Shown here one piece after another: positions 15,010-47,690 of a DNA stretch of 64,000 bases. Numbering within the stretch: the first letter of the stretch is position 1; every line of letters starts with the position of its first letter. The translations under genes and the position numbers were made by a program. The stretch comes from Breznakibacter xylanolyticus (GTDB lineage: Bacteria; Bacteroidota; Bacteroidia; Bacteroidales; Marinilabiliaceae), in NCBI RefSeq assembly GCF_003254275.1, contig NZ_QKZK01000006.1:1-64000 (forward strand). Direction: 5' to 3'. Below the pieces are notes generated by a model, which did not search any database, had not been told where the DNA came from, and saw only the letters and a list, made by a program, of their open reading frames with translations.

Positions 15010-15092
15010 TTGAGTTATCTGCTTTGTTATTTTAACGCAAGGCGTAACAATATAACTCAGCGCCTTCGCGCCTTTGCATTTATTTTGACTCT
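15010..15092. repeat. Dispersed repeat B, full copy
   Basis: Runs from tgagttatctgctttg through acgcaaggcgtaacaa and cagcgccttcgcgccttt to tattttgactct. It is the first of two repeats in the 417-bp gap 14891-15307, which has no gene. Confidence 0.75.
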
Positions 15093-15116
15093 ATTGCTGA
15101 ATTGAACTGTTTTTTT

Positions 15117-26132: not shown

Positions 26133-27225
26133 ATACAGGTGGTTTGGTGTGTAACTAAATACAAAAAAATAATCCCGACAACAGGAAAAGAAAAGCCACC
26201 CTAAAACGAAAAACGGGAACGTAAAAAATACGATCGCCAAACTTCAAATCAAGGTGGTAAGGATCGTCAAAAAAATGTAACCTTTTTTTATATTGTACGC
26301 TCAAAAATTTGAATGGTTACGCTTTTGAGTCGAGAATCCCAATCTTTTAAAAAGTACATTTCATGCACATTTGCAACCAACATGGGAAAAAAGTACCATC
26401 TACTCTTTGTTGCTCACTAAGTTGCGAACAAATATACAAAAAACAACCATTCAAAATTCATCCAAACACCAAAAAAACATCTATTAACGGATTCTCGTCA
26501 TTCATTTTCGTCAGTTCGTCAACAAAACCACTAAATCATTCAAAAAAAATATTTAATGTCCACATAACACTTACTGCCACCCATTAACCATTTCTTTAAC
26601 TTCAAATACAGTAATATTGCGGCAACTCAAACAAATTAGAATGTTGAATGAGTGTATCTCCACGAAATTCAGAATCTCCGTTGTGCACTAAAATTCAACC
26701 CTCCTATTAATTAAATAAGGGCTTAATCTCCTCACTGGTTCTCATCTTAACTCACTGCACCTCAGTGTCAGCTCTTAATTGATTATGCAGAGGAAAATAA
26801 CTGAACACTGAGTTCCTTTCGTATATTCCCCTAACTGGCCCTCATCTTTTCTCACCGCAACTCAGCGTCAGTTCTTAGTTGTTTACACTGATGTTTCTTC
26901 TCCTCACTGGTTCTCATCTTAACTCACTGCAAATCAGCGTAAGTTCTTAGTCAGTTAAACTAAGGATGTTAATTAACGCAGAGTTTCTAAATAATTAACT
27001 GAATACTAGGTTAAAATTTCTCAGGCTTAACACCCCCCAAAAAAACTCCGTGCCTCTGTGCCCCTGTGTACTCTGATAATTTGGATAGTAAAAAATCGTG
27101 AAATTCGTGGATAAAAATTTCCTAAAAACCTACCAAAAACAAAATAATAACGCTAACGAGTGATCTGCTTTCTTATTTAAACGCAAAGTATTACAACAAA
27201 ACTCAGCGCCTTCGCGCCTTTGCGT
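26133..27225. other. 1.1-kb repeat-filled intergenic region
   Basis: No gene is supported between the adhesin and the MORN protein; the 74-residue open frame at 26363 has no recognisable start context or family. The left part (26133-26720) should hold the adhesin promoter, reading leftward. The right part is occupied by three repeat A copies, fragments related to 'ctctgtgcccctgtgtact' and 'gaaattcgtgg', and one repeat B. Confidence 0.6.
26727..26987. repeat. Three tandemly placed copies of repeat A
   Basis: Copies begin at 26727, 26828 and 26899. Each reads ctcctcactggttctcatc (or ctaactggccctcatc), ctcactgcaactcagcgtca, gttcttagt. They differ by several substitutions, and the third ends in gttaattaacgcagag, matching the 15-kb copy. 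Spacing is about 70-100 bp. Confidence 0.75.
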
Positions 27226-27238
27226 TTATTTCGACTCT
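27158..27238. repeat. Repeat B copy overlapping the MORN gene end
   Basis: gagtgatctgctttcttatt through acgcaaagtattacaaca and cagcgccttcgcgccttt to tatttcgactct. Its last 13 bp supply the stop codon and final residues (TESK) of the minus-strand MORN protein. Confidence 0.75.
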
Positions 27239-28110
27239 GTTGAGGCCGGCAAGGGCGCCGCCCCCTTCTCCGAAACTTCAGATCGTACAATTTTCCCATC
27301 CTCATAATATTGCGTCATCACCAATCGCCCCGCCGCATCATACACATACCGCCGCCCGTCCATCAAAATCCCATCTCTAAAATACCCTTGCTTCTCAATC
27401 TGACCATTGATGTGATAAACGGTATGTCGGCCGGTTCCGATAAATGGAGTCACCTCGTTCACCGCTTGCCCCACCCCATCGGGCATCGCCTCTGCGGGTG
27501 ATTTCTCTCCTGCAGCAAGTTGCGCAACCCCATTCTTAAAACGGGTACTCTTCACCAACGTCCCTTGCTCGTCATAATGCCTTTCAATGCCATCAATCAC
27601 GCCATTGGTTCGAGGCGTGCGATATTTCAATTGTCCATTCTCGTGATAATAAAGCTGCTCTCCCTCTCGTTTCCCGGCGGTATTGTACCGCCAATGATAG
27701 GCCATTTGACCCGAAGGATAATAAAACCGATACTCACCCACCCACTTGTCAACATCCCAAAACCCTTCTTCCCACAAAGTCCCGTCTTCATAATAAAACC
27801 TTGCCGGTCCACGAGCTTGACCATCTTCGTAGGTCAATTGATGCTTCATGCGCCCATGCGGATAATAAGCCTCCCAAACCCCATGCTTCTGTCCTTTCCG
27901 ATAAACGCCTTTCTCCAATACACCCCCTCCATTGTCACGCAATTCCCACATCCCGGTTCGCTGACCTCGCTCATCCATTCGATTAAGACCATCAAACGAT
28001 GCAGATGTCTCTTGCCCCAACACCGTGATCATACCAAAAAAGCACCAACTCATTAAAAAAGCCAATGCCCAATCCCCTCTATTTTTAACAACGTGGTTCA
28101 CAACATCCAT
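27226..28110 (-). CDS. MORN_2-repeat secreted protein
   Basis: About 294 residues from Met at 28110. A hydrophobic N-terminal segment (WALAFLMSWCFFGMITVLGQ) looks like a signal peptide. About seven MORN_2-type repeats follow (for example GVYRKGQKHGVWEAYYPHG, WRYNTAGKREGEQLYYHENG, GYFRDGILMDGRRYVYDAAG). Such proteins are often labelled YwqK-family antitoxins, but no toxin gene is near and the signal peptide argues for an envelope role. Earlier Mets at 28149 and 28218 are possible. Its final residues lie inside a repeat B copy, so the 3' end may have been altered by repeat insertion. Confidence 0.75.
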   Translation of the reverse strand: MDVVNHVVKNRGDWALAFLMSWCFFGMITVLGQETSASFDGLNRMDERGQRTGMWELRDNGGGVLEKGVYRKGQKHGVWEAYYPHGRMKHQLTYEDGQARGPARFYYEDGTLWEEGFWDVDKWVGEYRFYYPSGQMAYHWRYNTAGKREGEQLYYHENGQLKYRTPRTNGVIDGIERHYDEQGTLVKSTRFKNGVAQLAAGEKSPAEAMPDGVGQAVNEVTPFIGTGRHTVYHINGQIEKQGYFRDGILMDGRRYVYDAAGRLVMTQYYEDGKIVRSEVSEKGAAPLPASTESK

Positions 28111-28375
28111 TTTTTCACGATATTTGCATGGGTCGATGCTTTTAGGCATCAAAAACAAGTTACATGCTTTCGATCGGGGTTGCAAAAAATATAGTAATTT
28201 CTTATCGAATTTGCACACTCAATGTCCAATGGCTAAACCTCCCGAACATGCACGGCAGCACCCATTGAAAAATTGTGTCATTTTCTCTAATGCGTTTTTA
28301 CCACAAACCCTCAAAACTGGCAAAATGCAAGTTTTCTAAAAATCTCAACACACTGATAGCCTGCGTTTTAAAACA

Positions 28376-28452
28376 GATAAAGCATGGGTAAAGCATAGAT
28401 AGTGCCTGGATGAAGCATAGATAAAGCATAGATAGTGTATGAATAGTGCCTG
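28376..28452. repeat. 11-bp tandem array (7 units)
   Basis: Seven consecutive 11-mers: gataaagcatg, ggtaaagcata, gatagtgcctg, gatgaagcata, gataaagcata, gatagtgtatg, aatagtgcctg. The period is exactly 11, not a multiple of three, so it is not coding. Bases 28409-28470 are identical to the reverse complement of 46765-46826. Confidence 0.85.
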
Positions 28453-28817
28453 AACGATTAAGTTAAATAGCCACCAAGACAAGCAACGCTAATACTGCCA
28501 AAAAGTACAAACACAACCAACATACAAACTCATTTTGTGATAATCGACACAGCCACTTTCTGAAAAATATAATCCACACAACACACTGCCTTCGCAAATT
28601 GCCACAATCTCTTTGCCTGGCACAGAATGCACTAAAGCAATGATTTGAGATTCAATATCGTTAAGTTAAGAATCTGAACGGTTCAATGAGGCTCTCGGGT
28701 CAGTCAAGGAGTTAACAGATCACTGTTTTTGTGATATATTTAAGCTACAAATGCAACGTAAAAATAGGTCAAATACCCTATGATTTCTTTTTAGACGCGT
28801 GCAATACTTTTTAAGAG

Positions 28818-29024
28818 GCCCCATAGGGGCCAAATATCGGTAGCATTTAGGGGATTCGTTTACCTCTCGCCCCAATCGGGGCGAAAGATGATTTGCGAAC
28901 CTTCATCTACCGAGCTTTGGGGCCCAAAGGCACCATAGAAAAAGCTCAAAAGATCAAGTCCGATTTGATTGTGAGCCATAAGAATTGGGAGAAATGATAG
29001 CAAATCACTAAAGAAACGACACTA
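28818..29024. repeat. Dispersed repeat C, copy 2
   Basis: Matches 409-575 with the same order of tcggtagcatt, central cgccccaatcggggcg hairpin, ctaccga and agcaaatcactaaagaaacg. It carries about 40 extra bases after ctaccga (ggggcccaaaggcaccatag) relative to copy 1. It ends 160 bp before rnr. Confidence 0.7.
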
Positions 29025-29186
29025 AGATAAGATTCATGAATAAAACATAACCTCTTAAGCCGGTGCACCGTCACTCACATCCTGACATCATAAAAACTTA
29101 AAAAGAGCCATGAGCAAACCTTTACCACACCGAAGGTTGACAATTTGCGAGTTCCACATGGCAACTGAAAAACAAATTATAGACAA

Positions 29187-46402: not shown

Positions 46403-46560
46403 AATATTTCGTAATGAGATGAACAAGTCATCAAAAAGATTGAATGTGATTATCTTTTTGAATTTGAGAAACACAAATTAAACACATGAAAAGAAGAGAA
46501 ACAAATGGGAAGCAGAAATACATCAACAAGGGCACACATTGCAAATGTGCGCCAGCGAAG
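46403..46560. repeat. Hairpin repeat E, long unit 1
   Basis: About 157 bp from ttcgtaatgagatgaacaag to agcgaagg. It ends in the stem-loop ggcacacatt-gca-aatgtgcgcc (46531-46553), a 10-bp stem with one mismatch. The next unit follows directly. It lies in the leader of the S46 gene. Confidence 0.85.
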
Positions 46561-46561
46561 G

Positions 46562-46718
46562 ATAATTTCGTAATGAGATGAACAAGTCATCAAAAGATTG
46601 AATGTGATTATCTTTTTGAATTTGAGAAACACATATTAAACACATGAAAAGAAGAGAAACAAATGGGAAGCAGAAATACATCAACAAGGGCACACATTAC
46701 AAATGTGCGCCAGCGGAG
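46562..46718. repeat. Hairpin repeat E, long unit 2
   Basis: Almost identical to unit 1 and adjacent to it; stem-loop at 46689-46711 with loop aca. Only a few differences, such as acacatatt for acacaaatt. Confidence 0.85.
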
Positions 46719-46782
46719 CAGTATTTGCACTTTTTGACAAAATCAGACATCTTCAATTTAGCACCTATTTAACTTAATCGTT

Positions 46783-46848
46783 CAGGCACTATTCATACAC
46801 TATCTATGCTTTATCTATGCTTCATCTATACACCATCCATACACTATC
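46783..46848. repeat. 11-bp tandem array (6 units, inverted)
   Basis: caggcactatt, catacactatc, tatgctttatc, tatgcttcatc, tatacaccatc, catacactatc. This is the reverse complement of the array at 28376-28452; 62 bp (46765-46826) are identical, including the flank ctatttaacttaatcgttcagg. Confidence 0.85.
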
Positions 46849-46994
46849 CTCCTGAAACCCTTTGCTGGCAAGGGGTTGAGAGGGGTATAGATTGGTATTT
46901 TGAGGGATTTTGGAGAAAGAACGGAAAAGAGGGTTGCAGAAAATGACACAACCTCAACAAGAAAAATAGAGGATGATTGATGAATCAAAATAGA

Positions 46995-47206
46995 AAAATG
47001 ACAATCAGATATTATGAATATTGGATGGTAAAATAGAAGACCCATTTTGCAAAGATGCACCAGCAAAGGATACGTATTGGTTCTATATCGATGATCATAG
47101 TGATTGACTATCACTGATATCTATGGTTTTATCCCAATAGCAACGAGATAATAAAAGGAGTGAAGAACCATAATGAAGGCACACATTGCAAATGTGCGCC
47201 AGCGGA
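46995..47206. repeat. Hairpin repeat E, composite unit 1
   Basis: About 210 bp. It starts near aatgacaatca, has a degenerate hairpin core (acccattttgcaaagatgca, 47040-47063), then 'cgatgatcatagtg', 'agcaacgagataataaaagg', and ends in the full stem-loop at 47178-47200. A second copy is at 47266-47473. Confidence 0.8.
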
Positions 47207-47265
47207 GGCTATGCGGCCAAACCATTTTGCAGGCAACTTGCCTGTTATTGTCCATGTACATATTT

Positions 47266-47473
47266 AAAAAATAACAATCAAGTACTGTGAATATTGGATG
47301 GTAAAACAGAAGACCCATTTTGCAAAGAGGCACCAGCAGAGGATACGTATTGGTTCGATGATCATAGTGGTTGACTATCTATGACAGCTATGGTTGTATC
47401 TCAATAGCAACGAGATAATAAAAGGAGTGAAGAACCATAATGAAGGCACACATTGCAAATGTGCGCCAGCGAA
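47266..47473. repeat. Hairpin repeat E, composite unit 2
   Basis: Same order as the unit at 46995, with a degenerate core at 47314-47337 and the full stem-loop at 47445-47467. Differences are scattered substitutions and one short deletion (ctata). Confidence 0.8.
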
Positions 47474-47477
47474 GGAA

Positions 47478-47690
47478 AATTTCGTAATGAGATGAACAAG
47501 TCATCAAAAGATTGAATGTGATTATCTTTTTGAATTTGAGAAACACAAATTAAACACTTGAAAAGAAGAGAAACAAATGGGAAGCAGAAATACATCAACA
47601 AGGGCACACATTACAAATGTGCGCCAGCGGAGAATACTGGATGGTGCAAAAATAGAAGACACACATTGCAAATGAGCTTCATTGATGTGA
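47478..47690. repeat. Hairpin repeat E, long unit 3 and trailing fragment
   Basis: 47478-47633 repeats the long unit with the stem-loop at 47603-47625. It is followed by a fragment of the composite unit (actggatggtgcaaaaatag, core acacattgcaaatgagctt at 47659). The apparent open frames across this whole region share the same repeated peptide and are not genes. Confidence 0.8.

Follow-up and report, generated by a model that had tools for sequence, protein, structure and literature searches.

Dispersed intergenic elements with 11-bp repeat arrays in Breznakibacter xylanolyticus: candidate assembly sites for an oligomerising DNA-binding protein

Introduction

Two short arrays of an 11-bp direct repeat lie 18 kb apart and in opposite orientation on the chromosome of Breznakibacter xylanolyticus, and a stretch of 62 bp is identical in both. 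What are these arrays, and why do they match so exactly? The window in which they occur, i.e. the whole stretch of DNA analysed here, comprises 64,000 nucleotides (positions 1 to 64,000 of contig NZ_QKZK01000006.1, assembly GCF_003254275.1) of a 4.38-Mb draft genome in 92 contigs. A length of 11 bp is about one turn of DNA, and the main known settings of arrays in phase with this turn are phage att sites, plasmid centromeres and iterons. In the present genome, turn-phased arrays occur at scattered chromosomal sites, within elements whose length hardly varies.

Results

The first array is composed of seven direct-repeat units at 28376-28452 on the forward strand and the second of six units at 46783-46848 on the reverse strand, as a sequence-only reading of the window had counted them and as period analysis gives them. 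The exact inverted match reported in that reading, 28409-28470 against 46765-46826, was reproduced at 62 of 62 positions and lies in an extended inverted pair of 85 nt with 89% complementarity. The non-repeat flank, previously put at 19 bp, measures 18 bp within the exact match (28453-28470, +; 46765-46782, -). Both the inverted match and the alignment of the nine genome copies described below identify this flank as conserved, and it contains box C around ATTAAGTTAAATAG. A more distant motif had been placed on the same side of both arrays, and this holds: box A, TGTGTCATTTTCT, is located upstream at 28274-28286 (+) and 46938-46950 (-). The first of these is also supported by the nine-copy alignment, and the box recurs before the arrays of another genome, G203. 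On the other side, the alignment places a box D at 28496-28511 (+), as TGCCAAAAAGTACAAA, and at 46724-46739 (-), as TGTCAAAAAGTGCAAA. From box A through filler, array and box C to box D, the first copy (C6a) occupies 28268-28514 (+) in the nine-copy alignment. The second (C6b) occupies 46721-46956 (-) and, by span measurement and alignment, is one 11-bp unit below family length.

According to the ORF calls, both arrays are situated in gaps between divergent genes, in agreement with the earlier description. C6a lies between a MORN-repeat gene (-) and an RNase R-like gene (+), and C6b between an S46-peptidase-like gene (-) and a beta-barrel-like gene (+). The MORN name comes from Pfam and the other three were read off the sequence; in this work only MORN, DUF5675 and DUF6266 are names from family searches, all remaining gene names being read off sequences. 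A pattern of two units with at most three mismatches matches four times in the window and not once in 100 dinucleotide shuffles; therefore, chance is excluded as the source of the window arrays.

A whole-genome search with the array yielded 13 matches: nine strong ones (query included), one array on contig C3, and three weightless matches of 19-20 bp (C7, C8, C74; E 0.06 to 4.9), which were left out. Many copies between genes had been proposed beforehand as a test, and the nine strong matches in this genome bear the proposal out. The seven further copies, the conserved box D on the other side of the array and the C3 array, which stands at a gene for a helix-turn-helix (HTH)-like protein, were absent from the sequence-only reading. 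All nine elements are intergenic by ORF calls, about 240 bp long, and have the same order of parts: box A (around GTGTCATTTTCT), approximately 100 bp of filler, an array with a period of 11, box C (around TTAGTTAAATAG) and box D (around TGTCAAAAAGTGCAAA).

The distance between the outer boxes is nearly invariant. Measured from the TGTCA of box A up to where box D ends, seven of the nine copies span 236 bp; C5 spans 237 and C6b 225, which is 236 minus exactly one unit. C36 has gained one position before the array and lost one after it, leaving the total length unaltered. Seven copies have TAGAT at an offset of 10 modulo 11 from TGTCA and the other two at an offset of 0, and an odd unit, CTCCCTAGATA, is present in C22, C10 and C24. 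Filler identity among the nine copies averages merely 44% (range 30-67%). In a leave-one-out comparison, homology of the filler is detectable in 7/9 copies, weakly for C6a (2.4 bits), and is not detectable in C30b and C22, both of which still span 236. A comparison repeat pair from the same genome, the single pair serving as the spacing control, is 70% identical and carries a 32-bp indel. Since the elements, unlike this pair, keep a near-constant span despite their diverged filler, the A-to-D span looks selected.

Dispersed copies of this kind could be a non-autonomous, MITE-like mobile element with an internal minisatellite, the array serving only for mobilisation or being incidental, as in BrickBuilt. 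The nine dispersed intergenic copies beside unrelated genes would fit such an element, and so would the in-register BLAST homology between copies, which ends at the element borders. Moreover, the G203 copies share up to ~1.1 kb and others 0.2-0.3 kb, as truncated mobile copies would. However, the best end match averages 7.0/10 versus 6.9 for shuffled ends, and no terminal repeat, inverted or direct, rises above the controls. Likewise, no target duplication at any offset exceeds permuted flanks in the nine copies, the best flank 5-mer (5/9 copies) being TGTCA, which is common to boxes A and D. Length is also retained although the filler has diverged or is not recognisably related. Terminal inverted repeats are common, although not universal, in MITEs. 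We regard an element of this type as a serious rival, possible if somewhat doubtful, though the usual MITE ends were not found here. The copies probably spread through some older step of duplication or mobilisation.

The elements might instead define a regulon, each copy acting as an operator or promoter for the genes next to it. Four of the nine copies, both window copies included, lie between divergent genes, and the same array is found at the start of the HTH gene, which would suit regulatory sites. By the same ORF calls, however, convergent genes enclose two copies (one of which has tRNA genes to one side), co-directional genes enclose a further two, and the remaining copy adjoins a contig end; no common function is visible among the neighbours of the nine copies. 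We consider the regulon improbable, and neighbour regulation is unlikely to be the common role of the elements.

The exact identity of the two window copies was previously taken to imply recent copying or gene conversion. A recent inverted duplication or a conversion between them would explain 62/62 inverted identity at a distance of 18 kb. However, few stretches of the family are as well conserved as the 62-bp core: compared with C6a, it is identical at 62/62 positions in C6b, 60/62 in C30b, 59/62 in C5 and 57/62 in both C30a and C36, falling to 51 in C22, 47 in C10 and 46 in C24 of 62. C30b and C5 sit on contigs other than that of the window. Outside the core, C6a and C6b differ in the same manner as other pairs, with 65% identity over the element. 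Near-identical cores elsewhere, together with homology that ends at the borders, imply that conservation of the segment suffices for the exact match. The implication of recent copying is thus not supported: the match is the top of the family's identity distribution, for which recent copying is not needed, and a recent event between the two window copies is quite improbable, although a short conversion tract is conceivable. An assembly duplication, which had been named as another possible source, is very unlikely because the flanks differ and other copies exist. Assembly artefact and simple pairwise recombination were both rejected in view of the seven further copies and the end of homology at the borders.

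A structured RNA gene, to which the constant length in 7/9 copies might point, is the least probable explanation, because the consensus folding energy (strand as aligned) is -2.0 kcal/mol with compensatory change in 0/7 predicted pairs, and the sole Rfam matches at both loci are far below gathering scores and outside the elements.

On contig C3, an 11-bp array extends into the start codon of a 77-aa HTH-like ORF, and sequence comparison reveals units common to this array and the nine dispersed elements. The 77-aa protein is the sole match in its own genome at E 1. Relatives of the protein were detected in 28 genomes, its own included, of the 100 examined, a set in which the window's own genome alone represents its genus; a search of genome_contigs gave 42 loci spread across Bacteroidota. 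An AlphaFold model of a Lutibacter relative (L094; pLDDT 91.1, pTM 0.78) contains four helices in two pairs, which are read as two putative HTH hairpins. A gene for a protein of ~250 aa, hereafter the partner, is found within the fetched stretch at 60/72 loci and is the divergent neighbour in 55 of these 60 by coordinates, the 72 loci being drawn from two overlapping locus sets and thus not independent. Downstream of the partner gene there are often a DUF5675 gene and genes for small proteins.

The HTH gene and its divergent partner are widespread, yet no Pfam or NCBIfam family matches either protein above cut-off. A Cox-like match to PHROG 575 is sub-threshold (E 0.013; 0.03 for the Lutibacter relative). 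Fold searches at E 0.001 gave no match for the HTH protein (best 0.83) or the partner (best 1.2e-3), the best VIA-align Z for the HTH model is 3.1, and profile searches of PDB sequences reached E 0.019 and 0.71 at best, with unrelated-looking chains.

Arrays with the same period recur upstream of the HTH homologues. Autocorrelation in these regions peaks at lag 11 (0.363), lag 22 (0.341) and lag 33 (0.313), with values of 0.26-0.30 elsewhere. Among 50 unique upstream regions, 34 exceed the 99th percentile of mononucleotide shuffles for an array and 16 have none above this threshold, a count that leaves out seven HTH loci without the anchor motif. Close counterparts of the odd unit of C22, C10 and C24 are found at Lutibacter and Tenacibaculum HTH genes. 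The two-unit pattern, with at most three mismatches, gives 15 overlapping matches in the window genome and no more than six in any other of 100 genomes. Outside the own genome, matches stand directly upstream of an HTH match in 3/3 cases with one mismatch and in 7/11 with at most two. A backward control pattern gives 26 matches over 101 genomes, none of them in the window genome; since this control also matches, isolated three-mismatch matches elsewhere are at about chance level.

Several further origins and roles were considered for the HTH locus and rejected or set aside. Box A is not clearly enriched at HTH genes, with 12/56 versus 5.8 expected. That the elements derive from the entire HTH promoter region was also set aside: it is mainly the array that accounts for the 51.8-bit match of the full model at C3. 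Taken alone, the filler scores 0.5 bits there; 52/2000 shuffles reach this value, as do roughly twelve of 543 other slices (those from elements excluded), and hence the score is no evidence. A phage origin of the gene was discarded, as viral contigs and 50,697 phage records contain no relative; viral contigs also have no exact match to the two-unit pattern. A plasmid origin was likewise discarded, with a relative in just one of 72,556 plasmid records, from Marivirga. On this plasmid, p1 of Marivirga sp. BKB1-2 (L138), the HTH relative has a DUF5675 gene nearby and a site-specific integrase ~1.2 kb further on. A defence system was rejected because the HTH protein, the partner and three neighbour proteins have no PADLOC match at E 0.1.

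The divergent HTH/~250-aa unit itself is seen throughout Bacteroidota (L021:1102-2934 on contig C3; loci L033-L103). To our own reading, the small proteins near it look membrane-like and resemble a lysis cassette in appearance. One genome, G008 (loci L035 and L060), has ten HTH matches, several of which are truncated or have internal stops, and two of which are close together on one contig; judging from such copies, the unit is apparently duplicated and decaying in some genomes.

A sequence model of the nine copies was also run on 393 genomes of the order. It matched at least six genomes at E 5e-4, own included; the best five candidates per genome were scored, and the counts are therefore lower bounds. 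The follow-up at E 0.01 gave 10 matches in G203 and seven in G295, both of which belong to other families, three in G215 and three in G367, and a G066 match without a clear array was excluded from the counts. Several G295 copies repeat the terminal signature of the window copies, GTATGAAGAGTGC-TGAA, or close variants. In G203, box A directly precedes the array, and TAGAT lies at multiples of 11 from TGTCA in 8/10 copies, these being the copies in which the pattern located box A. With at most two mismatches, box A has no consistent position at the G295, G215, G585, G672, G597, G367 and G065 loci. Intergenic repeats of up to ~1.1 kb, ~76-80% identical, are present at G203 loci L162, L167, L173, L177, L181 and L183-L186; they carry box A and the 11-bp array, and no conserved ORF is visible in them. 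The 11-bp arrays at G215 loci L160, L166 and L175 have a different unit, GCCTTGATAGT.

A profile search for the HTH protein at E 0.01 found two matches in G367 and none in G203, G295, G215, G065 and G066. Arrays in G203 and G295 without a detected HTH relative imply that either the array type is wider than the HTH link or the protein has diverged past detection. From the sequences, these arrays may be bound by another protein or by an HTH relative that is too diverged, and either is compatible with the data. In a class-wide scan, whose control columns are void because TAGAT is the same read backwards and whose single matches in G734 and G773 may be chance, G597 has one array upstream of a much diverged HTH ORF. 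The units of this array (L194) are of the TAGATAACCCG type. It is possible that protein and operator co-vary in G597.

Discussion

We tentatively favour the interpretation, to which we give nearly even weight, that the arrays are the centres of dispersed non-coding intergenic elements of ~240 bp that are candidate assembly sites for an oligomerising DNA-binding protein. The elements may be docking strips along which a protein stacks, and not the remains of a single DNA duplication. Direct repeats at about one turn, combined with boxes at a kept distance, are the layout of sites for head-to-tail stacking proteins. The nine copies and the HTH-gene array, the 11-bp period and the near-constant A-to-D span over diverged filler argue for this assembly-site interpretation. 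Arguing against it are the arrays of G203 and G295, where an HTH relative is undetected, the lack of clear enrichment of box A at HTH genes, the HTH model without a significant fold match, the uninformative filler score at C3, a spacing control of one repeat pair and the 16/50 HTH upstream regions below threshold. The sequence-only reading had suggested that one unit per turn could place bound proteins on the same DNA face. Indirect support for such predicted same-face binding comes from the recurrence of the array upstream of a small HTH gene across Bacteroidota and from the box-array-box spacing, near-exact and once altered by one whole unit.

In the assembly-site interpretation, one subunit would occupy each 11-bp unit, giving a head-to-tail stack along a single face of the helix; this stack would bend the DNA and fix the position of boxes A and D relative to each other. 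We infer that the HTH protein, encoded by one gene here on contig C3, is a candidate binder of the elements in this genome. It would control its own divergent promoter region via the C3 array and may also occupy the dispersed elements, where DNA would be bent or looped and boxes A and D might bind a partner. A wider proposal, which we consider rather unlikely in full, is a chromosomal, non-phage nucleoprotein system of Bacteroidota in which a small tandem-HTH protein oligomerises on 11-bp arrays at its own divergent promoter region. In some lineages arrays of this kind would have been built into genome-wide platforms of fixed geometry (box A, array, box D), 236 bp long or shorter by one unit, whose role would lie in organising or rearranging the chromosome and not in regulating neighbours.

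Literature searches by words and by the letters of the unit, covering few subscription papers, found no recognisable description of this element, although several known systems are comparable. In ParR/parC plasmid centromeres, a small protein binds direct-repeat arrays located at the promoter of its own gene. The present elements differ in being chromosomal and dispersed, with fixed flanking boxes. Porphyromonas gingivalis belongs to the same order-level group as the source organism. Its BrickBuilt element is a MITE with a 23-nt tandem unit and terminal inverted repeats (PMC4596501). Our elements are similarly intergenic and multi-copy, with flank, tandem array and flank, but differ in the 11-bp unit, in having no detected terminal inverted repeats and in the fixed span.

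Recombination directionality factors (RDFs) offer a comparable arrangement of sites. As described in PMC7498355, Apl of phage 186 binds direct repeats 10-11 bp apart, seven operators being situated between its promoters and another five at attP, and Apl and other RDFs stack head to tail with one subunit per turn. Compared with this description of Apl/Xis/Cox sites, direct repeats one helical turn apart occur here both in the elements and upstream of HTH genes, and arrays of five to seven repeats are found at the candidate regulator's promoter region and at separate sites. The units common to the C3 array and the nine elements are a similarity of sequence. Unlike those of Apl, our elements are chromosomal and without a match in phage collections, and comprise nine dispersed sites with boxes at a fixed distance, and the protein has only a sub-threshold Cox-like PHROG match. 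RdfS is a small wHTH protein that oligomerises into filaments and binds att and its own promoter, at sites with no apparent consensus (PMC11963761). The candidate here is also a small HTH protein, whereas the present elements have a clear 11-bp unit; kinship of the proteins is not implied.

If the HTH protein binds the arrays, it would be an undescribed stacking regulator of Bacteroidota with its own operator code, and some genomes would carry scattered high-capacity binding platforms.

Other repeats are found around the elements. At window positions 46406-46715, 46994-47475 and 47445-47632, C6b is surrounded by a 158-bp tandem duplication and by further copies of repeats with the palindrome-like GCACACATTGCAAATGTGCGCC. 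Other dispersed intergenic repeat families in the window are represented by the pairs 410-576 / 28827-29025 and 15012-15096 / 27158-27242. Beside a box-D-like site at C6:169730 there is, by eye, what we take to be a sigma-54-like motif. A repeat family with GTAAGGCTGGATTTCAATCC flanks L016 (C5), L017 (C36) and L018 (C22), and in C5 it stops at the left border of the element.
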